Below are positions 1,428 to 19,989 of a stretch of 38,686 nt of DNA, piece by piece. The notes beneath the pieces are model-generated. The model saw only the letters and a list, made by a program, of their open reading frames with translations. It was not told where the DNA came from and did not search any database. The stretch covers positions 1-38,686 of the forward strand of contig JAAYVZ010000120.1 in the NCBI GenBank assembly GCA_012516935.1, given 5' to 3'. Positions within the stretch are counted from its first letter, which is position 1. Each line of letters starts with the position of its first letter. The position numbers and the translations under genes are program-made. The DNA comes from Holophagae bacterium. Lineage in GTDB: Bacteria > Acidobacteriota > Thermoanaerobaculia > Thermoanaerobaculales > Thermoanaerobaculaceae.

Positions 1428-3011
1428 ATGAACGGCACGGTGATACTCATCGCTGGCGCTGTGATTGTGCTCCTCGCCGCCGGGGGAGTCGCGATCCTCG
1501 GTCGTCAGCGGCTTCGCCGCGCGGCGACGGAGGCAGATGCTCTCCGGGCAGCGGCGGAGCGGGAGCACCGACGGGTCATCGCGGTCGCGCAGCAGGAAGC
1601 TGAGCAACTGGTCAGAGATGCGACGATCGAGGCGCGCGAGAAGCTGCTGCAGGCGCGCAGCGAGTTCGAGCGTGAGACGCGGGAGTACCGCCAGGAGCTG
1701 CTGGGCCAGGAGCAGCGGCTCGAGCAGCACGCTCTGGCCGTGGACGCGCGCGCCCTGGCCGTGGACGAGAGAGCGCACGAGCTCGACGCCCGCACGCAGG
1801 CCCTCGACGATCGCGAGGTTGCGGTGGCTCTCGAGGAGGATGCGGTAGCCGCCAGGGTAGCCGAGCAGCGGGCGACGCTCGAGCGGATCGCCGGTCTGAC
1901 GTCGGAGCAAGCGAAGGGCGAGCTCATGCGGACAATGGAGACCGAGGCGCGCATGGACGCTGCACGGATCGTCCGGCGCCTCGAGGAGGAGGCGGTCCAG
2001 GAGGCCAACCACCGGGCGAAGCGCATCATTTCGCTCGCCATCCAGCGGGTCGCGGCGGACCACGTGGTCGAGAGCACGGTCTCGGTCGTGGACCTCCCCA
2101 GTGACGAGATGAAGGGCCGGATCATCGGTCGCGAAGGGCGCAACATCCGCGCCCTCGAGACCGCTACGGGCGTCGACCTGATCGTCGACGACACCCCGGG
2201 CGCGGTGCTGTTGTCGTGCTTCGATCCGGTGCGGCGCGAGGTCGCCCGGCTTGCGCTCCAGCGTCTGATGAGCGATGGCCGGATCCACCCCGGGCGGATC
2301 GAGGAGGTCGTCAGCAAGGTCCAGACCGAGCTCGACGAGAAGATCTTCCGCGACGGCGAGGCGGCGGCCCTCGAGCTGGGCTTCCCGGATGTCCACCCGG
2401 AGCTGCTCAAGCTGCTCGGCCGGCTCCAGTACCGCACCTCGTACGGGCAGAACGTGCTCGCTCACGCCAAGGAGGTCGCCTGGCTGGCCGGCTACATGGC
2501 CACCGAGCTGCGGGTCAACGTCCGGGTCGCCAAGCGTGCCGGACTCCTGCACGACATCGGCAAGGCGATCGACCGGGAGATGGAAGGCACCCACCTCTCC
2601 CTGGGACGCGACCTGCTGCGCAAGTACGGCGAGTCGGAAGAGGTCATCCACGCCATGGAGTGCCACCACGGGGACGTCGACCCGCACTCCGTGGAGGCGG
2701 TGCTGATCACCGCCGCCGACGCGCTGTCTGCGGCTCGACCGGGGGCCCGACGGGAGATCCTCGAGAGCTACCTCAAGCGCCTCGAAAAGCTGGAGGCGAT
2801 CGCCAACGACTTCAAGGGCGTGCAGAAGGCGTTCGCGATCCAAGCCGGACGCGAGCTGCGCATCATCGTCGAGTCCGAGAAGCTCTCGGACGAGGACGCG
2901 ATCTGGCTGTCGCGCGACCTCGCCCGCCGTATCGAGGGTGAGCTGACGTACCCGGGTCAGATCAAGGTGACGGTGATTCGCGAGACCCGCGCGGTGGAGT
3001 ACGCCAGGTAG
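1428..3011 (+). CDS. rny: Ribonuclease Y
   Basis: RNase Y is a membrane-anchored endoribonuclease that starts bulk mRNA decay. The 527-residue protein has the full family architecture. An N-terminal hydrophobic helix (about 3-25) is followed by a long charged coiled coil (about 30-190, rich in E, R, A and Q). A KH RNA-binding domain contains [15 protein letters not shown] (about 225-240). An HD phosphohydrolase domain has its metal-binding H-D at about 375-376 in [10 protein letters not shown], with HH further on in ECHHGD. The length equals the usual ~520. ATG 1428 follows a GGGGGA ribosome binding site. Nothing essential is missing. Confidence 0.97.
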
Positions 3012-3050
3012 CCGAGCTGAGGCGGGAGGGGCGTGGCTTTCCTCTTGTCC

Positions 3051-4451
3051 TCAGACGAGCCGAACCGTCTCCTCGAGCGCGGGGATATGGCACGGCCACG
3101 CGAAACGCTTGGTGATGCGCGCGGCCAGGGCGGCGCTGGCAGCCGGCTCTCCGTGGGTGACGAACACCGTTTTCGGTGCCGTCTCGGCGCGCGCGAGCCA
3201 GATCTCGAGCTCGTCGGCGTCGGCGTGGGCGGAGAGCGAGGAGATCGAGCGGACCTGTGCTCGCACCGGCACCATCTCACCGAAGATCTTGACCGCTTTG
3301 GCTCCCTCCAGGATCGCCCGACCGCGGGTTCCCTCGGCCTGGTAGCCGACGAACAGCACCGTGGTTTCCGGGCGCGGCAGCCGGTGCCGGAGGTGGTGCA
3401 GGATCCGGCCCCCGGTGGCCATCCCCGAGGCCGAGATGATGATCGCCGGCCCCCGGAGCGTGTTGAGGCGTTTGGACTCATCCGTTCGCCCCACCATCGT
3501 GAGGTTGGGGGGAGCGAGAGGATCGACTCCCTCACCACGCAGGTGGCGGGTCTCCGGGTCGTGCTCGCGGACCGTGTCGCGGTAGGCGGCGGTGGCTTCC
3601 CGCGCCATCGGTGAGTCGACGAAAATGGGTACCGCTGGTACTGCCTCGTCCTCGATCAGCTCGCGCAAGTAGTACAGCACCTCCTGGGTGCGGTCGACGG
3701 CGAACGCGGGGATGAGGACGATACCTCCCCGGTCGACGGCCTCCTTGATGACCTCGGCGAGATCGTCACGGGGGTCGGTGGCCGCGTGCAGCCGGTTGCC
3801 GTACGTGGACTCGATCACCAGGTAGGTCGAGCCCGGGTACGACTCCGGCGGTGGCAGGATCGGCGCGTCGTAGCGACCGACGTCGCCCGAGAAGTAGATC
3901 GTCACGTGCTCGCCCGCCGCCTTGATGCGCAGCTCCACCGCCCCGGCGCCGAGGATGTGCCCTTGACGGTGGTAGCGGACCTGCATCCCAGCATGCAGGA
4001 CGTGCCAGTCACCGAACGGCACGGGGCGGATGGTACGCAGCGCCTGTTTGACATCCTCCTGGCTGAACAGCGGCTGGGCGGGGCGGTGCTTCGTGGACCC
4101 GACCTTGTTGGCGTAGCGGGCTTCTTCCTCTTGGAGGTGCGCGGCGTCGGGCAGCAGCACCCGGAGGAGCCGCAGCGTCGACGGCGTGGCGATGGTCGGC
4201 CCCTCGAACCCCTGTCGCACCAGCAGCGGGAGGATGCCCGTGTGGTCGATGTGGGCGTGGGTCAGGATCACGTGGTCGAGGGTCGATGGCTCGACCGGAA
4301 ACGGCGCCCAGTTGCGTAAACGCAGCTCCTTCGGCCCCTGGAACATCCCGGCGTCGACCATCACCTTGGTGCCATGTGCCTCGACCAGGTACCGCGAGCC
4401 GGTGACGGTGCCGGTGGCGCCCAAAAAGGTGAGGTTGACCATGGCATGCAT
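3051..4451 (-). CDS. Beta-CASP metallo-beta-lactamase RNase (CPSF/YSH1-like)
   Basis: This is a zinc-dependent nuclease of the metallo-beta-lactamase/beta-CASP group, related to bacterial and archaeal CPSF-like RNases. The metal-binding motif is THAHIDH (about residues 64-70). A later histidine lies in RQGHILGAG, an aspartate in FSGDVGRYD, and the beta-CASP segment contains PAFAVDRTQEVLYYL. The C-terminal RMMBL part has SSLSAHAD and VFVTHGE. I placed the start at ATG 4449-4451; a second in-frame ATG at 4440-4442 is equally possible, because no strong ribosome binding site separates them. The longer frame to 4508 is less likely. It is convergent with rny; the 39-nt gap holds no clear terminator. 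It probably acts in RNA processing. Confidence 0.9.
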   Translation of the reverse strand: MHAMVNLTFLGATGTVTGSRYLVEAHGTKVMVDAGMFQGPKELRLRNWAPFPVEPSTLDHVILTHAHIDHTGILPLLVRQGFEGPTIATPSTLRLLRVLLPDAAHLQEEEARYANKVGSTKHRPAQPLFSQEDVKQALRTIRPVPFGDWHVLHAGMQVRYHRQGHILGAGAVELRIKAAGEHVTIYFSGDVGRYDAPILPPPESYPGSTYLVIESTYGNRLHAATDPRDDLAEVIKEAVDRGGIVLIPAFAVDRTQEVLYYLRELIEDEAVPAVPIFVDSPMAREATAAYRDTVREHDPETRHLRGEGVDPLAPPNLTMVGRTDESKRLNTLRGPAIIISASGMATGGRILHHLRHRLPRPETTVLFVGYQAEGTRGRAILEGAKAVKIFGEMVPVRAQVRSISSLSAHADADELEIWLARAETAPKTVFVTHGEPAASAALAARITKRFAWPCHIPALEETVRLV

Positions 4452-4555
4452 GGTACCCCACACAGCGCTGTGCCAGGTGCGCAGCGTCGGGCGCGGAGCC
4501 AAGGTCACGGGCCCGGGGCTCGAGTCGTCCCTCGCGGTCGAGTGGGGCTGGCTGC

Positions 4556-4583
4556 AGCCGCAGCCTGTATCTCGGCTGCGGCT
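4556..4583. repeat. 10-bp perfect inverted repeat in a 353-bp gap
   Basis: AGCCGCAGCC (4556-4565) and GGCTGCGGCT (4574-4583) are separated by an 8-nt loop. No T-tract follows on either strand, so it is not a classical terminator. It lies in the 4452-4804 gap between the metallo-beta-lactamase gene and the helicase, at the left edge of the defence island. I see no other gene in the gap. Confidence 0.5.
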
Positions 4584-4804
4584 TGCGTGGTGCGGGAGTC
4601 GACTCTATCCTCGCAGAAGCAGCACGAGCCTCGACGGGTCTTCGTCGACCTCCGAGCTACTCGAGCCAGGGCCGGGCGCATGAGGGACGCAGGCGAATCG
4701 CTGGGTCCGACGGGCTGCGTCCCAGGGCGCGCAGGATCTGACCGCACCACGGCCGCACTTGGTCGATACCGGGACAGGACCCTCCCAGGGTTGGAGCGTG
4801 CAAC

Positions 4805-7800
4805 GTGAGCACTCTCGATGATCTCCGCCCCGACGCAGCCGTGCGCGGCATCCTGCCAGACCAGCTCGTAACCGTCGTCAACGTCCAGTGGTACGGATCC
4901 GAGGCGCTCGAGCTGACATACAAGACCGTCACGGGCAAGGTCGACCACGAGATCCTCTACCGCTCCGACGAAGCGAGGATCGAGGTCGTCCAGGAGGGCC
5001 GGCCGTGGAGCTTCGACGGCGACGGCCACCTGTTCCGCCTCGTCTCCGAAGCCCACCGCATCCGTCTCGCGCACCTGTTCGACCCGGTGCTGGCCGTCCA
5101 CACCTCGGACGTCGTCCCGCTTCCACACCAGATCACCGCCGTCTACGAGGTCATGCTCCCGCGCCAGCCCTTGCGGTTCCTCCTGGCCGACGACCCGGGG
5201 GCCGGCAAGACGATCATGGCCGGCCTGCTCATGAAGGAGCTGATCGCGCGGGGCGACCTCCAGCGCTGCCTCGTCGTCTGCCCCGGCAGCCTCGCCGAGC
5301 AGTGGCAGGACGAGCTCTACCGGCGCTTCGGCCTGCCGTTCGAGATCCTCACCAACGACAAGCTCGAGGCCGCCCGCACCGGCAACTGGTTTGGCGAGAC
5401 CAACCTCGTCATCGCCCGGCTCGACAAGCTGTCCCGCAACGAGGACGTGCAGGCCAAGCTGCGGGCGCCCGACTGCCGGTGGGACCTCGTCGTCTGCGAC
5501 GAGGCGCACAAGATGTCGGCCACCGTCTTCAGCCGCGAGATCAAGTACACCAAGCGCCATCGCCTCGGGCAGCTCCTCTCGACGCTCACCCGCCACTTCC
5601 TGCTCCTCACCGCGACCCCGCACAACGGCAAGGAAGAGGACTTCCAGCTCTTCATGGCGCTGCTCGACGGCGACCGTTTCGAGGGCCGGTTTCGAGACGG
5701 CATCCACTCGGCCGACGTCTCGGATCTCATGCGCCGCATGGTCAAGGAAAACCTGCTCACCTTCGACGGCACGCCGCTGTTCCCGGAGCGCATCGCGTAC
5801 ACCGTCCCGTTCAAGCTGTCGGACCCCGAGGCCCACCTCTACAAGGGCGTCACCGACTACGTCCGCGAGGAGTTCAACCGGGCCGAAGCGCTGCAGGACG
5901 ACAAGCGGGCCGGGACCGTCGGCTTCGCCCTGACGATCCTCCAGCGCCGCCTCGCCTCGTCGCCGGAGGCGATCTACCAGTCGCTCCGGCGGCGCCGCGA
6001 GCGGCTCGCCACGCGTCTCCGCGAGCTGGAGCTGCTTCAACGCGGGGCGCAGGTCGCCGCCGTGATGCCTGCGGAGCTGGCGCTGGGCACCGACGACGTC
6101 GAGGACCTCGAGGATGCGCCCGAGCAGGAGATCGCGGTCGTCGAGGAGGAGATCCTCGACCAGGCAACCGCCGCGCGGACGATCGAGGAGCTGAAAGCTG
6201 AGCTGACGACGCTCCACGCCCTCGAGTCGCTCGCCCTCGCGGTGCGCCGCAGCGGGAGCGACCGCAAGTGGCGAGAGCTGGCGGCGCTGCTGGGTGAGAT
6301 CTTCACCCCGCCGCTCGTCGACGGCGTGAGCGACGGCCCCGCTCCCTACGGAAGCGGCGACCTCCCCAAGCCGATCGCCTCGCCGCGCCAGAAGCTCGTC
6401 GTCTTCACCGAGCACCGCGACACCTTGGCCTACCTCGCGGAGCGGATCTCGACCGTCCTCGGCCGGCGCGACGCCGTCGTCTGCATCCACGGCGGGCTCG
6501 GGCGCGAGGAACGCATGAAGGTGCAGGAGGCGTTCAAGCACGACCCCGAGGTGCAGGTCCTCGTCGCCACCGACGCGGCAGGGGAAGGGATCAACCTCCA
6601 ACGCGCCCACCTGATGGTCAACTACGACCTGCCGTGGAACCCCAACCGCATCGAGCAACGGTTCGGGCGTATCCACCGCATCGGCCAGACCGAGGTCTGC
6701 CACCTGTGGAACCTGGTCGCCGAGGAGACGCGGGAAGGCGACGTCTACCGGACCTTGCTCGACAAGCTCGAGGAGGCGCGCCGGGCGCTCGGCGGCCAGG
6801 TCTTCGACGTCCTCGGCAAGCTGCAGTTCGCAGGGCGGCCGCTGCGCGAGCTGCTCGTCGAGGCCATCCGCTACGGCGAGCAGCCCGAGGTCCGCGCGCG
6901 TCTCACCCAGGTCGTCGCTGCCGCCCTCGACCGTGAGCAGCTTCGAGACCTCCTCGAGGAGCGGGCGCTCGCCCACGACGCCATGGACTCAAGCCGCGTC
7001 TTCCGCGTCCGCGAGGAGATGGAGCGGGCCGAGGCGCGCCGCCTGCAGCCGCACTACATCGAGTCGTTCTTCCTGGAGGCGTTCAAGCGCCTGGGTGGTA
7101 CCGCCAAACAGCGCGAGACCGGTCGCTGGGAGGTGACGCACGTCCCGGCGCCAGTGCGCAGCCGCGACCGCCTCATCGGCGTTGGCGAGCCGGTGCTGCC
7201 GCGGTACGAGCGGATCGCCTTCGAGAAGCACCTCGTCGCCCCGCAGGGGCAGCCCCTGGCCGCCTTCGTCTGCCCCGGCCACCCCCTGCTCGACGCCACC
7301 ATCGACCTCACGCTCGAGCGCCACCGTGACCTGCTGCGGCGGGGTGCCGTGCTCGTCGACGAGCGCGACGGGGGAGTGGAGCCGCGCGTTTTGGTCTACC
7401 TCGAGCACGCGATCCAAGACGCCGCAACCACCCGCTCCGGCGAGCGCCGCGTGGTGTCCAGGCGCATGCTCTACGTCGAGCTCGACGCGTCCGGCACCGC
7501 CAGGCACCTCCACTACGCCCCGTACCTCGACTACCGCCCACTGGCGCCGGGCGAGCCCGGCATCGACGTGCTGCTGGCACGGCCGGAGTGCGGGTGGATC
7601 ACCAGGGACCTCGAACGCACGGCGATGGCGCACGCGATCGCGGCCATCGTTCCCGAGCACCTGGAGGAGGTGCGCGCCCGCAAGCTCGAGCTCGTCACCA
7701 AGACCGAGGCCGCCGTCAAGGACCGCCTGACCAAGGAGATCACGTACTGGGACCACCGCTCGGAGGAGCTGAAGCTCCAGGAGCAGGCCGGCCGGCCCAA

Positions 7801-8377
7801 CGCCCGCCTCAACTCGGACGAGGCCCGCAAGCGGGCCGACGCCCTCCACGCGCGGTTGCAGAAGCGGCTCGAGGAGCTGAAGCTCGAGCGCCAGATCTCG
7901 CCGCTGCCGCCCGTCGTGCTCGGGGGCTTGCTCGTGGTGCCCATGGGGCTGCTCGTCGCCATCAGGGGTGATCGCCCGAGCACCGTCGTCACCGCCGACA
8001 CCCAGGCCGCCGCCGCCCGCGCCAGGGCGATCGTGATGGCGGTCGAGCGGGACCTCGGCTTTGAGCCCGTCGACCGGGAGACCGAAAAGCTCGGCTACGA
8101 CATCGAAAGCCGCGTCCCGGGCAGCGGCCGGCTCCGCTTCATCGAGGTCAAGGGCCGCGTGAGCGGTGCCGAAACCATCACCGTGACCCGCAACGAGGTG
8201 CTGTGCTCCCTCAATAAGCCCGACGACTACATCTTGGCGATCGTGGAGTTCATGGCGGATGGGTCGCACCGGGTCCACTACCTCCGTCGACCGTTCCGGC
8301 GCGAGCCCGACTTTGCAGTGGTCAGCCAGGACTACTCCTTTGCTGAGCTGCTGCTCCGGGCAGGGGTACCGGCGTGA
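4805..8377 (+). CDS. SNF2-family helicase with C-terminal DUF3883-like domain (defence)
   Basis: A 1190-residue SNF2/superfamily 2 ATPase. Motif I is DDPGAGKT (129-136), the DEAH box is CDEAHK (231-236), and motif III is LLTATPH (268-273). The second RecA lobe has TDAAGEGINLQRA and QRFGRIHRIGQTE (about 590-635). The middle is helical and charged. A late segment has coiled-coil character (about 970-1040). The last ~110 residues resemble DUF3883, with GYDIES and FIEVKGR spaced like a PD-(D/E)xK nuclease core. GTG 4805 follows GGAG at 4793-4796. Homologues of this architecture sit with DUF1156 methylases and DUF499 ATPases in phage-defence loci. Here those partners lie 3.2 and 8.2 kb downstream. 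DNA translocation and remodelling are the likely activity; nuclease activity is inference. Confidence 0.9.
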   Translation: MSTLDDLRPDAAVRGILPDQLVTVVNVQWYGSEALELTYKTVTGKVDHEILYRSDEARIEVVQEGRPWSFDGDGHLFRLVSEAHRIRLAHLFDPVLAVHTSDVVPLPHQITAVYEVMLPRQPLRFLLADDPGAGKTIMAGLLMKELIARGDLQRCLVVCPGSLAEQWQDELYRRFGLPFEILTNDKLEAARTGNWFGETNLVIARLDKLSRNEDVQAKLRAPDCRWDLVVCDEAHKMSATVFSREIKYTKRHRLGQLLSTLTRHFLLLTATPHNGKEEDFQLFMALLDGDRFEGRFRDGIHSADVSDLMRRMVKENLLTFDGTPLFPERIAYTVPFKLSDPEAHLYKGVTDYVREEFNRAEALQDDKRAGTVGFALTILQRRLASSPEAIYQSLRRRRERLATRLRELELLQRGAQVAAVMPAELALGTDDVEDLEDAPEQEIAVVEEEILDQATAARTIEELKAELTTLHALESLALAVRRSGSDRKWRELAALLGEIFTPPLVDGVSDGPAPYGSGDLPKPIASPRQKLVVFTEHRDTLAYLAERISTVLGRRDAVVCIHGGLGREERMKVQEAFKHDPEVQVLVATDAAGEGINLQRAHLMVNYDLPWNPNRIEQRFGRIHRIGQTEVCHLWNLVAEETREGDVYRTLLDKLEEARRALGGQVFDVLGKLQFAGRPLRELLVEAIRYGEQPEVRARLTQVVAAALDREQLRDLLEERALAHDAMDSSRVFRVREEMERAEARRLQPHYIESFFLEAFKRLGGTAKQRETGRWEVTHVPAPVRSRDRLIGVGEPVLPRYERIAFEKHLVAPQGQPLAAFVCPGHPLLDATIDLTLERHRDLLRRGAVLVDERDGGVEPRVLVYLEHAIQDAATTRSGERRVVSRRMLYVELDASGTARHLHYAPYLDYRPLAPGEPGIDVLLARPECGWITRDLERTAMAHAIAAIVPEHLEEVRARKLELVTKTEAAVKDRLTKEITYWDHRSEELKLQEQAGRPNARLNSDEARKRADALHARLQKRLEELKLERQISPLPPVVLGGLLVVPMGLLVAIRGDRPSTVVTADTQAAAARARAIVMAVERDLGFEPVDRETEKLGYDIESRVPGSGRLRFIEVKGRVSGAETITVTRNEVLCSLNKPDDYILAIVEFMADGSHRVHYLRRPFRREPDFAVVSQDYSFAELLLRAGVPA

Positions 8378-8454
8378 CCCGCGAGAGGGACCTCGGCATC
8401 GCTGTGCTGGGCCGCTTGGCCGCCTTCGGATGCACTTTCCCGGCGCCCTCGGGA

Positions 8455-8482
8455 TTGACAATCTTAACCTTGAGGTTAAGAT
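8455..8482 (+). promoter_or_regulatory. TAC promoter with palindromic operator
   Basis: A perfect inverted repeat, ATCTTAACCT (8461-8470), TG, AGGTTAAGAT (8473-8482), abuts a perfect -35 TTGACA (8455-8460). TAAGAT at 8477-8482 is a 4/6 match to a -10 box at 16-nt spacing. A dimeric antitoxin bound here would block RNA polymerase, the usual autoregulation of toxin-antitoxin operons. If this promoter is used, transcription would begin at about 8489, after the ATG at 8481. Then either a downstream start codon is used, or another upstream promoter serves the gene. Confidence 0.65.
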
Positions 8483-8897
8483 GAGGGTGCTGAGGATTGC
8501 CCGGGCGGCATGGGATGTGTTGCTCCTCGCGAATGATCATGATCGATGTGGCGTGCTCGAGGCTCTTCTCGATCTTGCGGATCAAGGTGGTCGAGGCATG
8601 CTGGCGTTGCTCAAGGAGATCGTTGCCTGGACCGGGCCACCGTGGGACAACCCAAGCCTGTGCAAGAAGGTGCGTGGGGAGATCTGGGAGCTCAGAAAGG
8701 GCTCTGTGAGGCTGTTCTGGTTCGCTGACGAAGGGAAGGTCGTCGTGGGTACCGTCGCGTACAAGAAGCAGGGGCGAAAGGCCCCAGGCCGGCACATCGA
8801 CACCGCCGAGGCCGCACGCCGGGAGTACCTTGCCGCGAAGCGCGCAGGAACGCTGGGCCTCACCGACCTGACGACGAAGGAGGGAGCGACGCCGTGA
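8481..8897 (+). CDS. higB: HigB/RelE-like toxin (Gp49-type)
   Basis: A protein of about 138 residues with the phage-derived Gp49/HigB pattern: a helical N-terminal part (GVLEALLDLADQGGRGMLALLKE), then KVRGEIWELRKGSVRLFWFADEGKVVVGTVAYKKQGRKAP, read here in pieces. The family phrases are IWELR, RLFWF and the Lys-rich K-K-Q-G-R-K-A-P strand. HigB toxins cleave mRNA in ribosome context. ATG 8481 has GAGG at 8472-8475, but both lie in the operator palindrome; the frame is open upstream to 8430. The stop overlaps the antitoxin start by 4 nt (GTGA). Toxin-first order is typical for higBA. Toxicity is inference from family. Confidence 0.8.
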   Translation: MRVLRIARAAWDVLLLANDHDRCGVLEALLDLADQGGRGMLALLKEIVAWTGPPWDNPSLCKKVRGEIWELRKGSVRLFWFADEGKVVVGTVAYKKQGRKAPGRHIDTAEAARREYLAAKRAGTLGLTDLTTKEGATP

Positions 8898-9304
8898 AAA
8901 CGCTCGACCAGTACCGAATAGCCCTGGAGCGCATGGAGACCGCTGTCGAGTACAGGGTGGAGGTTGCGGCGCTTCGCTTCGTGGGAGAGGTCGTCGCCGC
9001 CATGCGTTTCGGGGGGATCAAGCAGGCCAGCCTCGCAGCGCGGCTCGGGACCTCGGAGCCATATGTCAGCAAGGTCCTCCGCGGCGATACCAACTTCACT
9101 CTTGGCACGATGGTGCGGATCGCAGATGCCCTGGGCAAGGAGCTCCATCTGCACCTTGCTGAGCCGGGAGCTTTTGTCCGTTGGCTCGACGTCCTGAAAG
9201 GGACGGGAAGCAACCTGACAGACGTGTCACCGGCGGCGCAGGTGACATTCAGCCACATGCAACAAGCAGGAGGGGCTGATGTTGCAGACCCCATTGCAGC
9301 TTGA
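8894..9304 (+). CDS. higA: HigA-like antitoxin, XRE helix-turn-helix
   Basis: A 136-residue XRE-family DNA-binding antitoxin. The helix-turn-helix lies at about 43-63 (QASLAARLGTSEPYVSKVLRG), preceded by a helical segment and followed by a recognition-type helix (TMVRIADALGKELHLHL). After about residue 92 there is an extra ~45-residue tail (GAFVRWLDVLKG... to the end). In TAC systems a tail like this is the chaperone-addiction segment that makes the antitoxin unstable without its SecB-like partner. GTG 8894 overlaps the toxin stop, with a GGAGGGAG ribosome binding site upstream. It probably binds the palindrome at 8461-8482. The chaperone gene starts 26 nt before this gene ends. Confidence 0.85.
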   Translation: MKTLDQYRIALERMETAVEYRVEVAALRFVGEVVAAMRFGGIKQASLAARLGTSEPYVSKVLRGDTNFTLGTMVRIADALGKELHLHLAEPGAFVRWLDVLKGTGSNLTDVSPAAQVTFSHMQQAGGADVADPIAA

Positions 9305-9809
9305 GCGGTCCTTTATCCCAATCGTCGAGGTGTTGGCAGACCCTGAGCACAAGCGAGGTGAGGCTCAGGTCAACCTGAAGGTCGAGCAGGGCATGTCGGC
9401 CCTGGATCAGGAGGCCTCACGGTGGCAGGTGGATCTTGACATCTCGGTGGGAGCTGAACCCGGGTCGGGGGCACCGCCCTACCGCGTCCACCTTCACGTG
9501 GTTGGGGTTTTCTCGTTCGCCGCACCTGAAATCGCAGAGCAAGAGCGGGCCAGGATCGTCGGCGTAACAGGCGCCTCGATCCTCTACTCCCAGGCCCGCG
9601 AGCTGCTGCTCATGCTGACCTCGCGCGGGCCGTGGGGAGCGTTTCAGCTCCCGACCGTGAGCTTCGTTGACAGCAGCCTCGCGGCTCACCGAACCGAGGC
9701 TGCCCTGGCGGTCCGGGATCCAGGGCCAGAATCCGGCGCCGAACGCCCCCCAGCAAAGCCACGCAAACGGGCGGCGAAGCGCGCTCCCCGTCGATCTGCA
9801 GGACGATAG
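9279..9809 (+). CDS. SecB-like chaperone of the TAC module
   Basis: A 176-residue protein with the SecB fold pattern. The diagnostic stretch is GASILYSQARELLLMLTSRG followed by PWGAFQLPTVSFVD, which matches the SecB core (NILFPYARE... SRG... L-x-P-V-x-F). The upstream part has alternating beta strands (VDLDISVGAE, YRVHLHVVGVFSF). In TAC systems a dedicated SecB-like chaperone protects the antitoxin tail; in studied examples phage structural proteins titrate the chaperone and free the toxin. The start ATG 9279 has an AGGAGGGG site (9268-9275) and overlaps higA. The last ~20 residues are unusual: they are Lys/Arg/Ala-rich (KPRKRAAKRAPRR), unlike the acidic tail of housekeeping SecB. It could contact nucleic acid. 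The SecB relation is strong; the sensing role is inference. Confidence 0.85.
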   Translation: MLQTPLQLERSFIPIVEVLADPEHKRGEAQVNLKVEQGMSALDQEASRWQVDLDISVGAEPGSGAPPYRVHLHVVGVFSFAAPEIAEQERARIVGVTGASILYSQARELLLMLTSRGPWGAFQLPTVSFVDSSLAAHRTEAALAVRDPGPESGAERPPAKPRKRAAKRAPRRSAGR

Positions 9810-9819
9810 GAGTGGCACG

Positions 9820-10980
9820 ATGAGATCCTCCAGCCAGCCTCTCCGCTTCACCCACGTGCACCTGCGTAACTGGCGCAACTTCCTCGAGGTTGACACCGAT
9901 CTCCAGCGGCGGGTGTTTTTGGTCGGCGCCAACGCGTCCGGGAAGTCGAACTTCCTCAACGTGTTTCGGTTCCTCCACGACATCGTGAAGGTCGGCGGGG
10001 GGCTGCAACAGGCGGTCGAGGACCGCGGCGGTGTGTCTTCGATCCGTGCGCTGACCGCGCGACGCAGGTCGGACATCGAGGTCGACGTTTCTGTGGGCAC
10101 CGCCGCAGTCCCGAAACTGTGGAGATACCGCCTCAGCTTCACGGCGGAGAGGGGAAAGCTGCCCACAATCAAGCGAGAAACGGTTGAACGTGAGGGCGTT
10201 GTAGTCAGGGAACGCCCGGACACCGACGATCTCGAAGATCCCGCACTGCTGACCCAGACGCATCTCGAGCAAACCAACGCCAACAAGGACTTTCGGCCGT
10301 TGGTGGGGTTTTTCAACGGCCTGCGCTACCTGCATGTCGTGCCCCAGCTGATTCGCGAGGCGGATAGCTGGAGGTCCATCGACAACGATCCGTACGGGGG
10401 AGACCTCCTGGTGCAAGTGGCGAAGGCTCCGCAGAAAACCCGCGAGGCGCGCCTGCGCAAGATCCAGAAGGCGTTGACCATCGCGGTGCCGCAGCTCGCG
10501 AAGCTCGAGCTGTGGCGAGACCCGATCCGCAACACGTGGCACTTGCGGGGCAAGTACGAGCACTGGCGACCCCAGGGCGCCTGGCAGACCGAGGAGCGCT
10601 TTTCGGATGGGACGCTGCGCTTGCTCGGGCTTCTGTGGGCGGTGCTCGATGGTTCCGGCCCGCTGCTGCTGGAGGAGCCAGAGCTGTCGCTGCACCCCGA
10701 GGTCATCAAGGAGATCCCCGGGATGCTGGCGAGGCTGCAACGGAGCTCCGGGCGCCAGGTCATGGTCAGCACCCATTCGAGCCACCTGCTCGCCGACGAA
10801 GGGATCGGCCTCGACGAGGTGCTGGTGCTGGTGCCGACCGGTGAAGGGACGACGGTCCAGCCGGTCGGAAAGCTGCGAGACGTCCAGCGGCTGCTCGAGG
10901 GCGGGGTCCAGCTTCCGGAGATCGTGATGCCCCACACCCGCCCCGAGCATGCCGAGCAGCTCTCCCTGTTCGCGGACTAA
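9820..10980 (+). CDS. AAA ATPase (AAA_21/RecF-SMC-like), defence-associated
   Basis: A 386-residue ABC-type ATPase. Walker A is GANASGKS (36-43). The signature-like FSDGTLRLLGLLWA precedes Walker B, PLLLEEPELSLHPE (about 280-293), and the H-loop is VSTHSSHLL (about 311-319). The N-terminal FTHVHLRNWRNF is typical of RecF/AAA_15/AAA_21 proteins. ATG 9820 has AGGAG at 9808-9812. The next gene, a DUF4276 protein, starts 4 nt after the stop, so the two are translationally linked. The layout parallels two-gene ATPase/TOPRIM defence systems such as PARIS, though the partner is a different family. Activity as an invader sensor is inference. Confidence 0.88.
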   Translation: MRSSSQPLRFTHVHLRNWRNFLEVDTDLQRRVFLVGANASGKSNFLNVFRFLHDIVKVGGGLQQAVEDRGGVSSIRALTARRRSDIEVDVSVGTAAVPKLWRYRLSFTAERGKLPTIKRETVEREGVVVRERPDTDDLEDPALLTQTHLEQTNANKDFRPLVGFFNGLRYLHVVPQLIREADSWRSIDNDPYGGDLLVQVAKAPQKTREARLRKIQKALTIAVPQLAKLELWRDPIRNTWHLRGKYEHWRPQGAWQTEERFSDGTLRLLGLLWAVLDGSGPLLLEEPELSLHPEVIKEIPGMLARLQRSSGRQVMVSTHSSHLLADEGIGLDEVLVLVPTGEGTTVQPVGKLRDVQRLLEGGVQLPEIVMPHTRPEHAEQLSLFAD

Positions 10981-10984
10981 GGTC

Positions 10985-11590
10985 ATGGGTGTTTCTCTTT
11001 ACGTTTCGGGCGCGGTGGAGGGATCGACCGACCGTGCCGCGCTGGCCCGCATCCTTCGCCACGTCGGCCTCACGCCAGGAGACCTGTACGTCACCGATGG
11101 GAAGCAGAAGCTGCTCCGGTCGCTCGCTGGCTACAACAACGCGGCTCGCTTTTCGCCCTGGGTTGTCCTGGTCGACCTCGACGGAGATGCACCATGCGCT
11201 CCCCGGTTCGTCGCTGAGGTGCTCCCTCACCCTGCCGAAAAAATGGCCTTCCGCGTCGCGGTGCGGGCCGTAGAGTCCTGGCTGTTGGCGGACATCAACG
11301 GGGTATCCAGCTTTCTTCACCTTCCCGCTGCCAGGGTGCCGGCAGAGCCGGACCAGCTCCCCGACCCCAAGCGCGCCCTCGTGGATCTCGCGGCCAGATC
11401 GAGAAAGGCCGCGATCCGAGAGGATATCGTTCCGCGCCCAGGGAGTGGTCGCGCGGTCGGGCCGGCCTATGCGTCCAGGCTCACTGAGTACATTCAAGAC
11501 CACTGGGAAATCGATGCCGCAGCCGCCCGAAGCCCGAGTCTCGCCCGCTGCGTCAACCGTCTCCGGGTCATCCAGAAGGGGGGAGCATGA
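10985..11590 (+). CDS. DUF4276-family TOPRIM-like protein
   Basis: A 201-residue protein with the DUF4276 layout. An early acidic strand is [15 protein letters not shown], a second acidic strand is [13 protein letters not shown], and the family's ESWLLAD motif follows. The E (in VEG) and the D-x-D (in VDLDGD) are arranged as in TOPRIM metal sites of OLD nucleases and topoisomerases, so nuclease activity is plausible. I chose ATG 10985, which sits 4 nt after the ATPase stop. The stop overlaps the methylase start (ATGA at 11587-11590), tying this pair to the DUF1156 gene. I am fairly sure of the family and less sure of the activity. Confidence 0.75.
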
Positions 11591-14487
11591 AGACCCGCAA
11601 GAAGCTCATCGAGGTGGCGCTGCCGCTGGAGGCGATCAACGAGGCCTCGGCGCGGGAGAAGTCGATCCGGCACGGGCACCCGTCGACGCTCCACCTGTGG
11701 TGGGCGCGGCGGCCGCTGGCGGCGGCGCGGGCGGTGATCTTCGCGCAGATGGTCGACGACCCGGGGAGCTGGCCGGAGCTGTTCCCCACCGCCAATGCGC
11801 AGGAGAAGGAGCGCCAGCGGCTGTTCCGCCTCATCGAGGAGCTGGTGCAGTGGGAGAACACCACCAACGAGAGCGTGCTCCGTGCAGCCCGCGACGAGAT
11901 CTGGGCGAGCTGGCGCCGCACCTGTGCCGAGAACGCTGACCATCCGCGGGCAAAAGGACTCTTCGACCGCTACAAGCTCCCTGCCTTCCACGATCCCTTC
12001 GCCGGCGGAGGCGCCCTCCCTCTGGAGGCCCAACGGCTGGGATTGCAAGCCTACGCAAGCGACCTCAACCCGGTGGCGGTGCTCATCAACAAGGCGATGA
12101 TCGAGATCCCGCCGCGCTTCGCGGGCCGGGAGCCGGTCAACCCGGAGTGGCAGCGGAAGAGCCCCGAGGAGAAGGCGCTGCGGACATGGAAGGGCGCCGA
12201 AGGCCTGGCCGAGGACGTGCGCTATTACGGGCAGTGGATGCGTGACGAGGCCGAGAAACGCATAGGGCATCTCTATCCCCAGATCGAGGTCACGGCCGCC
12301 ATGGTCGCCGAGCGTCCCGACCTCGAGCCCTACCTGGGCCGCAAGCTCACCGTGATCGCCTGGCTGTGGGCCCGCACGGTGAGAAGCCCCAACCCCGCTT
12401 TCGCCGACGTGGAGGTGCCGCTCGCCTCCACCTTCATGCTCTCCACCAAGCCGGGCAAGGAGGCCTACGTCGAGCCCGTCATCGCAAACGGCGGCTACCG
12501 CTTCACCGTGAAGGTGGGCAAGCCGGGGGATGTGGAGAGAGCGAAGAGCGGTACCAAGCTGGCCCGTGGGGCCAACTTCCGCTGCCTGATGTCGGGGACA
12601 CCGATTAGCGGCGACTACATCAAAGCCGAGGGCCGGGCCGGGCGCATGGGAGCGCGCCTCATGGCCATCGTGGCCGAAGGCGACCGGGGACGCGTGTACC
12701 TGGCGCCGACCCCGGAGCACGAGGCGGTGGCGCGGGAGGCGAAGCCGGAGTGGAGGCCGGAAGGCGACGTGCCGCCCAGACTCACGGGCGGTACTTGCGT
12801 CCCATATGGCCTGTCAACGTGGGGCGACCTGTTCACCCCCCGCCAGCTGGTGGCGCTCACCACCTTCTCGGACCTGGTGGGCGAGGCCATGGAGCGGGTC
12901 CGGAGCGACGCCGCAGCCGCAGGGCTGGCGGACGACGGGGTGCCGCTCCGCGAAGGCGGGACCGGGGCGACGGCGTACGCGGAGGCGGTGGGGGTGTATT
13001 TGGCTTTCACACTGGACAAGCAGGCTGATTTGGGGAACAGTCTGTGTCGTTGGGAGCCCATCGCGCAGTGCCCTCGACAATTGTTCGGACGCCAAGCCAT
13101 CCCCATGGTCTGGGACTTCGGCGAGGGGAACCCACTCGGTTCCAGCTCCGGGGCTTGGACTGTGTTCGTCGAGGGGATTGCGAAGGCTTTCGCTAAAGCC
13201 TCAGAGTCAGTCAAGGCGGAGTGGACCGGAACGGCTGAGCAAGCAGATGCCGGCGCACAAGAGATCTCGCGAGACAAGATCGTCTCCACCGACCCTCCGT
13301 ACTACGACAACATCGGTTATGCGGATCTCTCCGACTTCTTCTACGTATGGCTTCGTCGGTCTCTCCATCAGGTCTTTCCTGACCTGTTCGCTACACTCGC
13401 CGTCCCCAAAGCTGAAGAGTTGGTCGCTACGCCTTATCGGCATGGTGATAAGGGAAGTGCGGAGGATTTCTTCCTGAGTGGGATGACGCGCGCGATGAGA
13501 AACTTGGCGGGGTACGGGCACCCCGGCTTCCCGGTGACCATCTACTATGCATTCAAGCAGTCGGATACTCGCGCCGATGCGGGTACGATAAGTACGGGCT
13601 GGGAGACATTCCTGGACGCGGTTATTCGCGCCGGCCTGGGTGTTTCCGGAACTTGGCCCATGAGAACGGAAAACGAGAGCAGGATGATTGGCCAGGGCAC
13701 TAACGCTCTCGCCTCCAGCATCGTCCTGGTCTGCCGTCCCCGCGACCCCGAAGCCAAGCCTGCCACCCGCCGCGAGTTTGTCGCCGCTCTCAAGGCGGAG
13801 CTCCCTCAGGCCCTGACCCACCTCCAGCGAGGCAACATTGCTCCGGTCGACCTCGCGCAAGCGGCCATCGGCCCGGGGATGGCCGTGTTCACCCGCTACG
13901 AGAAGGTGCTCGACGCCGAAGGCCGGCCACTCACCGTGCGGGATGCGCTGGCGCTCATCAACCAGACCCTCGACGAGGCGCTGGCCGAGCAGGAGGGCGA
14001 GTTCGACGCCGACACCCGCTGGGCTCTCGCCTGGTTCGAGCAGCACGGGTTCGCCGAAGGGGATTTCGGCGTCGCCGAGATCCTGAGCACGGCCAAGAAC
14101 ACCAGCGTGGCCGGCATGGTCGAGGCAGGCATCCTGCTCTCACGGGCGGGCAAGGTGCGGCTCCTGCGTCCCGAGGAGCTGCCCAAGGACTGGGATCCAG
14201 CCACCGATACCCGTCTCACCAACTGGGAAATGGTGCATCACCTCATCCGGGTGCTGGGTGAAGGCGGGGAGACAGCCGCTGCTGAGCTGGTGGCCAAGCT
14301 GGGCTCCCAAGCCGAGACGGCACGCGAGCTCTGCTATGGCCTTTACACCGTGTGCGAGCGCAAGAAGCGAGCCGCCGAGGCGCTCGCCTACAACGCCCTC
14401 GTCCAGTCCTGGCCCGAGATCACCCGCCTCGCCCGCGAGGGTGCCGCCCACCTGCCCGAGCAGCAGACCCTTGGGTTCGAGCCATGA
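11587..14487 (+). CDS. DUF1156 DNA methyltransferase (defence)
   Basis: A 966-residue protein. The first ~75 residues are DUF1156 ([20 protein letters not shown] is the recognisable signature). The methylase SAM motif is [13 protein letters not shown] (136-148). The catalytic DPPY motif is in [21 protein letters not shown] (near 568-588), typical for N6-adenine or N4-cytosine methylation. The family occurs with the helicase and DUF499 ATPase in defence loci, probably marking host DNA. ATG 11587 overlaps the upstream DUF4276 stop. Base composition is uneven: about 13000-13720 is clearly less GC-rich than the flanks, which suggests mosaic origin. No restriction partner is adjacent, so the role in self-marking is inference. 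Confidence 0.92.
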
Positions 14488-14542
14488 AAAGTGCATATTC
14501 GGTGTTGAGCGTCCTCGTGGCGGCTAGGAGGAGGGTCCGACG

Positions 14543-15895
14543 ATGATCACCTCTTTGCGGGTCCAGAGCTTCAAGAGCTGGAGTGATACCAGGAAGCTGC
14601 GGCTCGGCAAGCTGACCGGCTTTTTCGGCGCCAACAGCTCCGGCAAGACCGGGATCCTCCAGCTCCTCCTACTACTCAAGCAGACAGCGGAGTCGCCCGA
14701 TCGTTCGCTTGCGCTCGACCTTGGGCAAAGCTGGGTCGCGGTGGACGTCGGTGGGTGGAGTGACATCGTTCATCGTCACGAGGTGGACAAGGAGCTGATG
14801 GTGAGCCTTTCGTGGGATCTGCCTAGAAGCCTGGAAATCCAGGACCCGGAGGACCCACACAAGAACCTCCTGTCAAGTGGCGCACTGGCGTTTTCGACGA
14901 CCATTGGTTCGACGAACGGCGGCAAGCTGCACGTGAAGGAGCTGTCCTATTTCTTTGCGGACCACACCTTCGTCTTCGCACGCACCGACCGGGGTGGGTA
15001 CGAGCTGCGTGCAGAGGGGCCTCGGGGGTTCGAGTTCAGGAAGGCAGTTGGAAGGCCGCGGGAGGCCCTGCCACCGCCGGTCAAGTGCTACGGCTTTCCC
15101 GACCAGGTGCGAGCGAGTTATCAGAACGCTGGGTTTTTGTTCGACTTCGCCCTGGCGTTCGAGAAGCTGCTTGGCGGCGTCTACTACCTCGGCCCGCTGC
15201 GTGCGTACCCGGAACGTCGGTACGCGTGGCGCAAAGACATGCCGTGGGACGTCGGACCTCAGGGCAAGCTGGCCGTTGCCGCCCTGCTCGCGTCTCGCGA
15301 GCAGGGTAAAAAGGCCTGCTGGGGGCGCAAAACACTGGAAGGCCATATTGCGTCTTGGCTACGGAAGTTGAGTCTTGTGGAGAGCTTCGACATTCGCGAG
15401 GTGCGCGAGGGGAGCTCGCTCTACGAAGTGGTCGTCCAGGTAGCCAAGGGTGGGCCGAAGGTGGCGCTGACCGACGTTGGTTTCGGTGTGTCACAAATCC
15501 TGCCGGTTCTCGTGCTCTGCTTCTATGCCCCTGAGGGCTCTACGATCATCTTGGAGCAGCCCGAGATCCACCTGCACCCATCGGTCCAGATGGGGCTCGC
15601 CGATGTGCTCATCGAGGCGGTCGAAAAACGCAAGGTGCAGATCATCGTGGAGAGCCACAGTGAGTACCTTCTCCGAAGGTTGCAGCGGCGTATCGCCGAG
15701 GACAAGATCAAGGCAGAGGAAAGCAGGCTCTACTTCTGCCGGAGCGAGGGGGGGCAGTCGATCGCTGAGCCCTTGAACCTCGACCTGTACGGCTACATCA
15801 CCAACTGGCCAGAAGGATTCTTCGGCGACGAAATGACCGAGGTCGTCGAGATGACCAAAGCGGCGCAGCAGCGCCGAGCTAGGGGTCAGGAGTGA
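14543..15895 (+). CDS. AAA ATPase with C-terminal DUF3696
   Basis: A 450-residue ABC-type ATPase. Walker A is GANSSGKT (29-36), the signature-like DVGFGVSQILPVLV precedes Walker B, STIILEQPEIHLHP (near 330-344), and an H-loop-like VESHSEYLLRRL follows. The C-terminus (YGYITNWPEGFFGDEM) is the DUF3696 hallmark. ATG 14543 follows GGAGGAGGG. The stop overlaps the next start (GTGA, 15892-15895), pairing it with a PIN-like protein. This cassette sits between the methylase and the DUF499 ATPase. An ATPase sensor driving the partner nuclease is the likely scheme, by analogy. Confidence 0.88.
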   Translation: MITSLRVQSFKSWSDTRKLRLGKLTGFFGANSSGKTGILQLLLLLKQTAESPDRSLALDLGQSWVAVDVGGWSDIVHRHEVDKELMVSLSWDLPRSLEIQDPEDPHKNLLSSGALAFSTTIGSTNGGKLHVKELSYFFADHTFVFARTDRGGYELRAEGPRGFEFRKAVGRPREALPPPVKCYGFPDQVRASYQNAGFLFDFALAFEKLLGGVYYLGPLRAYPERRYAWRKDMPWDVGPQGKLAVAALLASREQGKKACWGRKTLEGHIASWLRKLSLVESFDIREVREGSSLYEVVVQVAKGGPKVALTDVGFGVSQILPVLVLCFYAPEGSTIILEQPEIHLHPSVQMGLADVLIEAVEKRKVQIIVESHSEYLLRRLQRRIAEDKIKAEESRLYFCRSEGGQSIAEPLNLDLYGYITNWPEGFFGDEMTEVVEMTKAAQQRRARGQE

Positions 15896-16416: not shown

Positions 16417-16466
16417 CCGATGCGAATCTTCTCCACGGCGCGATTCCGCCTGCAAACAAAAGAAAA

Positions 16467-16532: not shown

Positions 16533-16619
16533 AAGTGTTTGCGCACGCAGTAACAAAGAGCAAGTTGACCCGAATACCCTGACGGCAAGGACTGGCAACC
16601 CGAGACAAAGGAGCCTGCG

Positions 16620-19600
16620 ATGGCGATCACCAACCACGAGCGCGTCGGCAAGGCGCTGGAGCTGCTCAACGCCGGGCTCGGCCCGTTCGTCGAGCGGGAG
16701 CTTACGAGCGCGTATGGCGATCAGGTGGCCGCCCAGGTGCTGCGGCTGTTGGGCGAGGATCGCATGCTGGCCGGACGGCCGGCCGCCCAGTGGGACAGCG
16801 CGGCGCTGCTGCGGGTGATGTGGGACGGCTGGAATGACGTCTTCCGCAACACCCTCGGCAGGGCCGAGCGCACGCTCGTCTCGGAGCTGCGCGAGGTGCG
16901 CAACCGGTGGGCGCACCAGCAGCCGTTCTCCGGTGACGACGCGTACCGCGCCCTGGACTCGGTGGCGCGGCTGCTGAGCGCGGTCTCGGCGCCGCAGACC
17001 GACGAGCTGGAGCGGATGAAGACCGAGCTGCTGCGGGTGCGCTTCGAGGAGCAGCTCCGCGGCGAGCGCCGCAAGACCACCGGTGCGGCGATCGAGAGCC
17101 AGGCCACCGGCGGCCTCAAGCCGTGGCGGGAGGTGGTGACGCCCCACCCGGACGTGGCGAGCGGGCGCTACCAGCAGGCCGAGTTCGCCGCCGACCTCTG
17201 GCAGGTGCGGCTCGGCGAGGGCGCCCCGGAGTATCGCAACCCGGCCGAGTTCTTCCGTCGCACGTACCTGACCGAGAGCCTGCGCCAGCTCCTGGCGGGC
17301 GCCGTCCGGCGTCTGGGCGGGGACGGCGGCGATCCGGTGGTGCAACTCCAGACCAACTTCGGCGGCGGCAAGACCCACTCGATGCTGGCGCTCTACCACC
17401 TGTTCTCGGGCACGCCGTACAGCGAGCTGCTGGGCATCGACGACATCGTGCGGGAGGTGGGTGTCGGCCTGCCGTCGGCGGTCAGGCGGGTCGTGCTGGT
17501 CGGCAACCGGATCTCGCCGGGCAACCCGGTCACCAAGCCGGACGGCACGGTGGTGCGCACCCTGTGGGGCGAGCTGGCGTGGCAGCTCGGTGGCCGTCCG
17601 GCGTTCGACCGGGTGCGCGCCGACGACGAGCACGCGACGTGCCCCGGCGACGTGCTGCGCGAGCTGCTCGTCGAGGCCGGCCCGTGCCTGATCCTCATCG
17701 ACGAGTGGGTGGCGTACGCCCGCCAGCTCCACGAGGCGAGCGACCTGCCGGGCGGGAGCTTCGAGACCCACTTCACCTTTGCCCAAGCGCTGACCGAGTC
17801 CGCCAAGCTCGCGAAGCATTGCCTGGTGGTGATCAGCCTGCCGGCCTCGGACACCGCGGCCTCGCCGCACGTCCAGGCCGACGACGTCGAGATCGGAGGC
17901 GTGCGCGGGCGCGCCGCGCTCGAGCGGCTGCACAACGCGGTGGGGCGGGTCGAAGCATCGTGGCGGCCGGCGAGCGCCGAGGAGGGGTTCGAGATCGTGC
18001 GGCGGCGGCTGTTCGAACCGTTGGTGGAGAAAGGCCAGTTCGTGGCTCGCGACGGCGTGGCGCGGGCGTTTTACGACCTGTACCGCACGCAGCAGCAGGA
18101 GTTTCCGCCGGAGTGCCGCGACGCCCAGTACGAGCAGCGCCTCAAGGCCGCGTACCCGATCCACCCCGAGGTGTTCGACCGCCTGTACGGCGACTGGTCG
18201 ACGCTGGTGAAGTTCCAGCGCACGCGCGGCGTCCTGCGCCTGATGGCGGCGGTGATCCACAGCCTGTGGGAGAAGGGCGACCGCAACCCCCTGATTCAGC
18301 CGGCCAACCTGCCGATCGACGACCCGCTGGTGCAGTTCGAGCTTACACGCTACTTGTCGGAGAACTGGGTGCCGGTGATCGAGCGCGACGTGGACGGCCC
18401 CAAGGCCTTGCCGCTGCGCCTCGACGGCGAGGTCCCCAACCTCGGCAAATTCGCGGCGTGCCGGCGCGTGGCGCGGGCGATCTACCTCGGCTCGGCGCCG
18501 ATCGCCACCGCCGCCAACCGCGGCCTCGAGGACCGGCGCATCAAGCTCGGCTGCATGATGCCGGGGGAGTCGCCGGCGATCTTCGGGGATGCGCTGCGGC
18601 GGCTGGCGACGGCGGCGACCTACCTCTATCAGGACGGGACGCGGTACTGGTACTCGACGCAGCCCACCGTGACCAAGCTGGCGGAGGATCGGGCCGAGCA
18701 GCTCAAGCACGATCCCGACGCCGTGGTCAAGGAGCTGGACCGGCGACTGCGCGCCGACCTGGCGAAGACCGGCGACTTCAGGCGGGTCCACCCGCTGCCG
18801 TCCTCCCCGGCCGATGTTCCGGACGACTTCGACGCACGGCTCGTCGTGCTGGGGGTCGATCACCCGTACAGCAAGGAGCCCGGCAACGCCGCCGAGCAGC
18901 GAGCGAAGGCGATCCTCGAGTCGCGCGGCAGCGCGCCGCGCTTGTTCAGGAATACGCTGGTGTTCCTAGCGGCCGACAAGACCCGCCTGCAGGACCTCGA
19001 CGAGGCGGTCAGACGGTACCTGGCCTGGAGGTCGATCATCGCCGACAAGGAGGTGCTCGACCTCACGCCGCACCAGGTCAAGCAGGCCGACTCACAGATG
19101 GGCGGCGCCGACTCGACGGTGAGCGTACGCTTGCCGGAAACCTACCAGTGGCTCCTGGTGCCGGTGCAGTCCTCGCCCCAAGCGGGCGTCGAGTGGCAGG
19201 TCATCCGCCTTGCGGGCCAGGATCCGCTCGCGGTGCGGGCCAGCCGGCGGCTGCGGAGCGACGAGCTGCTGCTGACCGGGATGGCCGGCACGCGGCTGCG
19301 CCTGGAGCTGGAGCGCGTCCCGCTCTGGCGCGGGGATCACGTTAGCCTCAAGCAGCTCGTCGAGGACTTCGCCCGCTACCCCTACCTGCCGCGTCTGCGC
19401 GACCCGGGTGTGCTGGTCGGCGCGGTGCGCGACGGTCTCACGCTGCTGCTCTGGCAGGACGAGACGTTCGCCTGGGCCGACAGCTACGACGAGGCTGCCT
19501 CCCGCTACCGTGGGCTGCGATGCGGCCGAGATCCGGGGGTGTCCGAGGACACCCTTGCCGGGCTGTTGGTCCGCCCGGATGTGGCACTGCGCCAGCAGGC

Positions 19601-19964
19601 GGCTGAGACGCCTCCGGCAGGGCCGGGGCCGACGCCTCCCGGTCCCGGCGGCTCAGGAGCGGAAGGTGGCACGGGCGCCGGGGGCTCAGCAGCTCCAGGA
19701 GAGGAATCTGACGCCGAGCGGCCGGTGCAGCCCAAGCGCTTCCATGGCAGCGTGGCCCTCGACGCCACCCGCGTGGGGCGCGACGCCGGCCGCGTCGCCG
19801 ACGAGGTGATCGCCCACCTCAACGGCCTGGTCGGCGCCCGCGTGACCGTGACCCTGGAGATCGAGGCCGAGGTCCCGTCCGGAACCCCCGAGCACGTCGT
19901 CCGCACCGTCACCGAGAACAGCCGAACCCTGAGGTTCACCTCCCACGGTTTCGAGAAGGAGTGA
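16620..19964 (+). CDS. DUF499 ATPase with N-terminal Swt1-like HEPN domain (defence)
   Basis: An 1114-residue protein. The N-terminus (about 1-125) looks like a Swt1-type HEPN domain: VGKALELLNAGLGPFVERELT at the start, and an R-x4-H motif, RNRWAH (R94-H99), as in HEPN ribonucleases. DUF499 follows, with Walker A TNFGGGKTHSM (245-255) and a Walker B-like CLILIDEWVAYARQL near 360. A Pro/Gly-rich linker (about 998-1030) leads to a C-terminal domain with VTLEIEAEVPSG. ATG 16620 has AAAGGAG upstream. DUF499 ATPases pair with DUF1156 methylases and helicases in defence loci, completing the trio here. RNase activity of the HEPN part is inference. Confidence 0.9.
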   Translation: MAITNHERVGKALELLNAGLGPFVERELTSAYGDQVAAQVLRLLGEDRMLAGRPAAQWDSAALLRVMWDGWNDVFRNTLGRAERTLVSELREVRNRWAHQQPFSGDDAYRALDSVARLLSAVSAPQTDELERMKTELLRVRFEEQLRGERRKTTGAAIESQATGGLKPWREVVTPHPDVASGRYQQAEFAADLWQVRLGEGAPEYRNPAEFFRRTYLTESLRQLLAGAVRRLGGDGGDPVVQLQTNFGGGKTHSMLALYHLFSGTPYSELLGIDDIVREVGVGLPSAVRRVVLVGNRISPGNPVTKPDGTVVRTLWGELAWQLGGRPAFDRVRADDEHATCPGDVLRELLVEAGPCLILIDEWVAYARQLHEASDLPGGSFETHFTFAQALTESAKLAKHCLVVISLPASDTAASPHVQADDVEIGGVRGRAALERLHNAVGRVEASWRPASAEEGFEIVRRRLFEPLVEKGQFVARDGVARAFYDLYRTQQQEFPPECRDAQYEQRLKAAYPIHPEVFDRLYGDWSTLVKFQRTRGVLRLMAAVIHSLWEKGDRNPLIQPANLPIDDPLVQFELTRYLSENWVPVIERDVDGPKALPLRLDGEVPNLGKFAACRRVARAIYLGSAPIATAANRGLEDRRIKLGCMMPGESPAIFGDALRRLATAATYLYQDGTRYWYSTQPTVTKLAEDRAEQLKHDPDAVVKELDRRLRADLAKTGDFRRVHPLPSSPADVPDDFDARLVVLGVDHPYSKEPGNAAEQRAKAILESRGSAPRLFRNTLVFLAADKTRLQDLDEAVRRYLAWRSIIADKEVLDLTPHQVKQADSQMGGADSTVSVRLPETYQWLLVPVQSSPQAGVEWQVIRLAGQDPLAVRASRRLRSDELLLTGMAGTRLRLELERVPLWRGDHVSLKQLVEDFARYPYLPRLRDPGVLVGAVRDGLTLLLWQDETFAWADSYDEAASRYRGLRCGRDPGVSEDTLAGLLVRPDVALRQQAAETPPAGPGPTPPGPGGSGAEGGTGAGGSAAPGEESDAERPVQPKRFHGSVALDATRVGRDAGRVADEVIAHLNGLVGARVTVTLEIEAEVPSGTPEHVVRTVTENSRTLRFTSHGFEKE

Positions 19965-19970
19965 GGGCGA

Positions 19971-19989
19971 GCCAAGGTTGACTCTTGGC
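19971..19989 (+). terminator. Weak hairpin after the DUF499 gene
   Basis: GCCAAG (19971-19976) and CTTGGC (19984-19989) pair around a 7-nt loop, 6 nt past the stop. No T-tract follows, so it may be a Rho-assisted or processing hairpin only. Confidence 0.3.

Follow-up and report, generated by a model that had tools for sequence, protein, structure and literature searches.

The DNA analysed here, a stretch of 38,686 nucleotides from an acidobacterium to which all positions refer and which we call the window, carries an Hma operon with three small overlapping genes lying downstream of its helicase gene. A sequence-only reading had taken these genes for a toxin-antitoxin-chaperone (TAC) module serving as an abortive backup inside a defence island, which raises two questions: are they such a module, and what would one be doing within an operon of this kind? 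We find that they form a real TAC of a known kind, the HigBAC type, and that the most likely reading of their role is a second, abortive layer within the Hma operon.

Identity of the three-gene module

Window 8481-9809 encodes, on the + strand, a Gp49/HigB toxin, a HigA-like helix-turn-helix (HTH) antitoxin and a chaperone of SecB fold (Table 1), with higB and higA overlapping by 4 nt (GTGA) and higA and secB by 26 nt. All three genes proposed from the sequence are therefore present, with Pfam matches to Gp49, HTH_3 and SecB, and the toxin starts at the ATG at 8481, the start agreeing with the homologues; position 8455, where the module had been said to begin, is not a start codon and belongs to the TTGACA of a promoter-like site.

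Table 1 Features of the module and of the surrounding Hma operon (window positions)
Feature	Position	Strand	Evidence or detail
hmaA helicase, host operon	4805..8377	+	PADLOC HmaA, 1688.5 bits
Promoter-like site: TTGACA (8455-8460), 16 nt, TAAGAT (8477-8482)	8455..8482	+	10/12 consensus match
Probable operator palindrome ATCTTAACCTTGAGGTTAAGAT, overlapping the -10-like element	8461..8482	.	10-bp arms, 2-bp spacer
higB-like toxin, Gp49/RelE superfamily, 138 aa	8481..8897	+	Pfam Gp49 PF05973, E 3.3e-11
higA-like antitoxin, XRE HTH, 136 aa	8894..9304	+	HTH_3, E 2e-9; PDB HigA3 and HigA matches
HigA C-terminal tail, residues 89-136, putative chaperone-addiction domain (ChAD)	9158..9301	+	48 residues, predicted disorder
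RWLDVLKG tail motif, residues 96-103, putative chaperone-binding site	9179..9202	+	Early Trp enriched in TAC antitoxins
SecB-like chaperone, 176 aa, K/R-rich C-terminal tail	9279..9809	+	Pfam SecB PF02556
C-terminal Ile-Ala-Ala (IAA), ssrA/LAA-like putative ClpXP degron	9293..9301	+	Ending enriched among TAC antitoxins
HEC-01A ATPase, co-embedded cargo	9820..10980	+	PADLOC HEC-01A, E 2.4e-149
HEC-01B (DUF4276-like), co-embedded cargo	10949..11590	+	PADLOC HEC-01B, E 2.3e-63
hmaB DUF1156 N6-methyltransferase, host operon	11587..14487	+	PADLOC HmaB, 1574.7 bits
HEC-03B, ATPase	14543-15895		PADLOC
hmaC DUF499 ATPase, host operon	16620..19964	+	PADLOC HmaC, 1125.9 bits

For the toxin, the only Gp49 match in its genome, the family profile matched a HigB structure in the PDB (6af3, E 1.7e-10), the Gp49 domain was recovered in 18 of 19 aligned toxins, and residues R77 and K96 were invariant across 19 homologue sequences. 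The NCBIfam models offered no toxin family for HigB and matched SecB and HigA only below their cut-offs. The chaperone scored just over the Pfam SecB cut-off (27.4 bits against 26; E 3.5e-6), and the sequence search found no close homologue with a solved structure, matching SecB structures only distantly. Its AlphaFold2 model (mean pLDDT 84.8) was matched by Foldseek to the SecB proteins of E. coli and H. influenzae and to 5mtw, the structure of Rv1957 with a ChAD peptide, at E 1.5e-8 to 1.6e-6. The protein ends in a K/R-rich tail (window 9740-9806), and basic tails also end many of its TAC homologues.

Searching species genomes with an alignment of four SecB sequences, a single pattern biased towards proteins close to the query, returned 22 loci in Acidobacteriota, Desulfobacterota and other groups. 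The order HigB-HigA-SecB was kept in most of them, and elsewhere SecB followed a different type of TA antitoxin. A SecB match in L021 was dropped because it lay inside an unrelated 450-aa GTPase-like protein. The closest relative (L023) has a SecB 44% identical to that of the window; in that locus an ORF with a TIR domain (L023:10541-11518) opens 7 nt after secB, and close by, on the opposite strand, is a type III restriction-like helicase-endonuclease. Across 18 loci the pairwise identities of the three TAC proteins were correlated (Spearman 0.44-0.64, with 0 of 2000 permutations as high, a figure that includes any effect of common ancestry among the organisms). The recurrence of the gene order with significant similarity in unrelated genomes, the confident SecB fold and this correlated divergence argue that the module is not a chance assembly.

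Among viral contigs, a search with a single SecB protein confirmed no close SecB relative, and the four-sequence alignment found two TAC-type SecB genes (L045 and L046). The SecB and antitoxin translations of L045 are identical to those of a Nitratidesulfovibrio locus (L035). No SecB relative turned up in phage records, and the plasmid search gave two SecB matches, both weak.

The window thus has a SecB-like chaperone gene within a toxin-antitoxin operon, as judged by the Pfam match, the fold and the overlap with higA, and beside it a cognate HTH antitoxin with a C-terminal extension that is absent from most two-component homologues. Together with the operator and the degron-like end described below, the family, fold, gene order and tail bear out the TAC identity proposed from the sequence. 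Taking identity and mechanism as one claim, we consider it highly probable that window 8481-9809 is a TAC module under chaperone control.

Antitoxin tail and operator

Measured on the alignment, the antitoxin extends 48 residues beyond its HTH domain, close to the earlier estimate of about 45. AlphaFold2 modelled the HTH domain with confidence and predicted residues 101-136 to be disordered (pLDDT about 40-45). The median number of residues beyond the HTH domain was 48 in SecB-linked antitoxins and 28 in homologues without SecB (Mann-Whitney p 4e-5), where 'without SecB' means none within about 1.5 kb on each side, or less at contig ends. The top-scoring homologue without SecB (L099) has a tail of only 7 residues, and another member of this group (L118) has a long tail with a VAA end.

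Two features of the tail set the groups apart, both defined post hoc after the tails had been viewed: a Trp within the first 16 tail residues was found in 11 of 19 TAC antitoxins and in none of 18 non-TAC homologues (Fisher p 9e-5), and 11 of the 19 ended in hydrophobic-Ala-Ala against 2 of the 18 (p 0.004). As the rows are not independent these p-values are descriptive, and relatedness adds to the contrasts, since many TAC members are closer to the window antitoxin than the non-TAC set is. In this set the tails of L035 and L038 were cut by hand, that of L038 down to five residues; the near-duplicates L025, L020 and L041 were excluded, and L028 and L029 were both retained. The Trp motif or the Ala-Ala end is missing from some SecB-linked antitoxins (for example L026, L034 and L039).

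In M. tuberculosis HigA1 the key segment of the ChAD for chaperone binding is WHRLSSYRG (PMC5105189), and the antitoxin CmdA ends in LAA, a ClpXP signal (PMC11618068). The Trp motif and the predicted disorder of the window tail are consistent with a chaperone-binding domain. ClpP was found in the window's genome. Owing to the overlap of higA and secB, the conserved PLQL start of the chaperone is encoded by the same bases as the end of the HigA tail.

In front of higB lies the palindrome; when the 106-base stretch tested was shuffled 2000 times, arms of at least 8 bp with spacers no longer than 4 came up in 10 cases. Its core, TTAACCT-NN-AGGTTAA, recurs before higB in most homologous TACs, directly upstream of the gene in L014, L024, L025 and L030 and as variants judged by eye in L023, L026, L028, L029, L031, L040 and L042. 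The palindrome is probably the site of HigA autoregulation. Allowing up to 2 mismatches, a search of the whole 3.72 Mb genome found no second operator of the kind that would mark a HigA regulon elsewhere. The -10-like TAAGAT overlaps the higB ATG (window 8477-8483), as it does in L023, so the simplest reading fails for one of the two, the promoter or the start codon. The gap between hmaA and higB has no unusual structure (z -0.49), and no terminator was found in it on the + strand.

A variable cargo slot in the Hma operon

PADLOC places the module in an Hma operon, which makes the proposed 'defence island' more precise: the TAC lies with HEC-01A and HEC-01B between hmaA and hmaB. Hma systems, renamed DUF499-centred BREX-related in a 2026 paper (PMC12839542), are host operons of the order hmaA-hmaB-hmaC that carry cargo between their core genes, the Hma-embedded candidates (HEC; PMC12988326) HEC-01 and HEC-03 among them. 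The window conforms to this plan, and its TAC sits, as embedded cargo does, between two core genes and on the strand that they occupy. A 174-aa ORF without a Pfam match (window 15892-16416), between HEC-03B and hmaC, is a possible partner of the HEC-03B ATPase.

Among plasmids the best match to the window hmaA came from the Meiothermus plasmid pMtWR-220, and the 73.6% protein identity suggests horizontal transfer between phyla. In pMtWR-220 the slot is empty, with hmaB directly after hmaA, and in Gloeocapsa and Fremyella plasmids other genes fill it. Around the hmaB genes of other Acidobacteriota, 20 stretches were examined, although truncation or rearrangement in some of them (L084 and L096, for example) means that the slot is tested in only part of the set; there is either no gap or one occupied by different ORFs, among them a HEC-01A-like gene in L078. 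The gap between hmaA and hmaB is therefore a variable cargo slot. No TAC was detected in these 20 stretches, so embedding of a TAC in Hma was not seen to recur, and for this reason a functional tie of the TAC to Hma specifically is not established. At third codon positions the GC content (GC3) of the TAC genes is 0.71-0.75 against 0.93 for hmaA and hmaC, in keeping with cargo of separate origin.

A related TAC occupies an operon of another kind. In L026, a locus of a Holophagales MAG that also appears in a second collection as L022, the same three genes, with an operator-like site at the promoter and a SecB about 38-41% identical to the window's, lie between hsdM (ending at 8991) and hsdS (starting at 10488) of a type I restriction-modification (R-M) system whose hsdR follows further on. 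The two modules share a setting in a DNA-modification defence operon and differ in the host operon itself and in the antitoxin, the L026 HigA having neither the Trp motif nor the Ala-Ala end. DUF559-type domains are also present on the hsdM and hsdR of that locus (L026:6634-20393).

PMC12839542 makes no mention of TACs as embedded cargo (the words SecB and chaperone occur 0 times in it), and we found no description of a TAC inside an Hma operon; this is a provisional statement, the original Hma-embedding study and bioRxiv having been outside the search.

Proposed role and alternative explanations

By analogy with the studied TACs, the SecB-like chaperone would bind the HigA tail, keep HigA folded and shield its IAA end from ClpXP, and HigA would in turn neutralise the HigB ribonuclease and repress the promoter at 8455-8482. 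An abundant unfolded structural protein of an infecting phage could then capture the chaperone, leaving HigA to be degraded, and the freed HigB would cleave translated mRNA and halt the infected cell. Such a chain of phage-protein titration, antitoxin degradation and mRNA cleavage would make the TAC a second, abortive layer acting if Hma restriction fails.

Three known systems stand behind this proposal. According to PMC11980606, HigBAC of E. coli C496 (Mets et al. 2024) combines the same HigB-type toxin, HigA-type antitoxin and SecB-like chaperone, and is activated by the lambda major tail protein; of these two modules HigBAC alone has an established phage trigger, and the window's alone lies in an Hma operon. 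The TAC HigB of E. coli O112ab:H26 is listed in PMC11980606 under its Gp49 family. In CmdTAC of E. coli ECOR22, which is anti-phage, a SecB-like chaperone protects an antitoxin with an LAA-type end until a phage capsid protein displaces it (PMC11618068); its toxin CmdT is an mRNA ADP-ribosyltransferase, whereas that of the window is of the RelE type. The HigB1-HigA1-Rv1957 system of M. tuberculosis likewise has three genes, a SecB-like fold (5mtw, Foldseek E 1.3e-7) and an antitoxin tail with a key Trp, but the chaperones are 17% identical in structural alignment, the genomic setting is another one and the tails are too short for their homology to be judged. From CmdTAC and HigBAC we infer an anti-phage role for the module with moderate confidence.

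The chaperone could instead be the general export chaperone of the organism, placed beside higBA by accident. The genome has no other SecB, and Bordes et al. (PMC5105189) report complementation of an E. coli secB mutant by TAC chaperones. However, the remaining 36 genomes of the same order gave no SecB match, and within the class a SecB was found in just 4 of 149, the window's included, a rarity which argues that the gene arrived with the toxin-antitoxin pair and not as export machinery; homologues whose surroundings were read mostly lie directly downstream of a TA antitoxin gene. We regard an export function as very improbable. A more serious rival is that the TAC is genuine but selfish or stabilising, having entered the Hma operon and made the locus costly to lose, with no sensing of phage. 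The occurrence of its relatives in many contexts, some near no recognisable defence gene (L029 and L030, for example), would fit such addiction, as would the module's lower GC3 and the lack of a TAC in the Acidobacteriota Hma loci examined besides this one. Against it, the slot that the module shares with HEC-01 otherwise holds genes that are defence candidates, a type I R-M operon carries a related TAC, and two studied TACs do sense phage proteins. We think addiction without sensing unlikely, though still worth serious consideration, and addiction and defence are mutually compatible.

It has also to be asked whether HigA controls more than its own module. If the downstream genes were driven from the HigA-repressed promoter, capture of the chaperone would, through loss of the antitoxin at the operator at 8461-8482, free the toxin and at the same time induce HEC-01, hmaB, HEC-03 and hmaC, so that protein-level sensing of phage would be coupled to DNA-modification defence. 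The promoter-like site under the operator is the sole sigma-70-like match within 3000-20300, the operator is unique in the genome, and secB ends 10 nt before HEC-01A, with HEC-01A, HEC-01B and hmaB overlapping. Yet shuffled sequence gives a mean of 0.9 such matches, so that one match is not above chance, and scanning for a promoter consensus has little power in GC-rich DNA; read-through from hmaA is possible, no terminator having been found in the gap on this strand, and hmaB is expressed without a TAC in relatives that have none. A sensor-switch of this sort seems to us improbable.

The most likely reading remains a second, abortive layer inside the Hma operon, and a role as abortive backup is plausible, strengthened by the finding of TACs embedded in two unrelated DNA-modification defence operons, Hma here and type I R-M in L026. 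The conserved operator, the tail motif and the degron-like end provide concrete sites at which the proposal can be tested. Taken with L026, the locus places in two different modification-based defence operons a toxin under chaperone control, whose kind is known to sense the structural proteins of phages; if the module works like the studied TACs, the operon would unite a first layer directed at DNA with a second, abortive one that senses protein.
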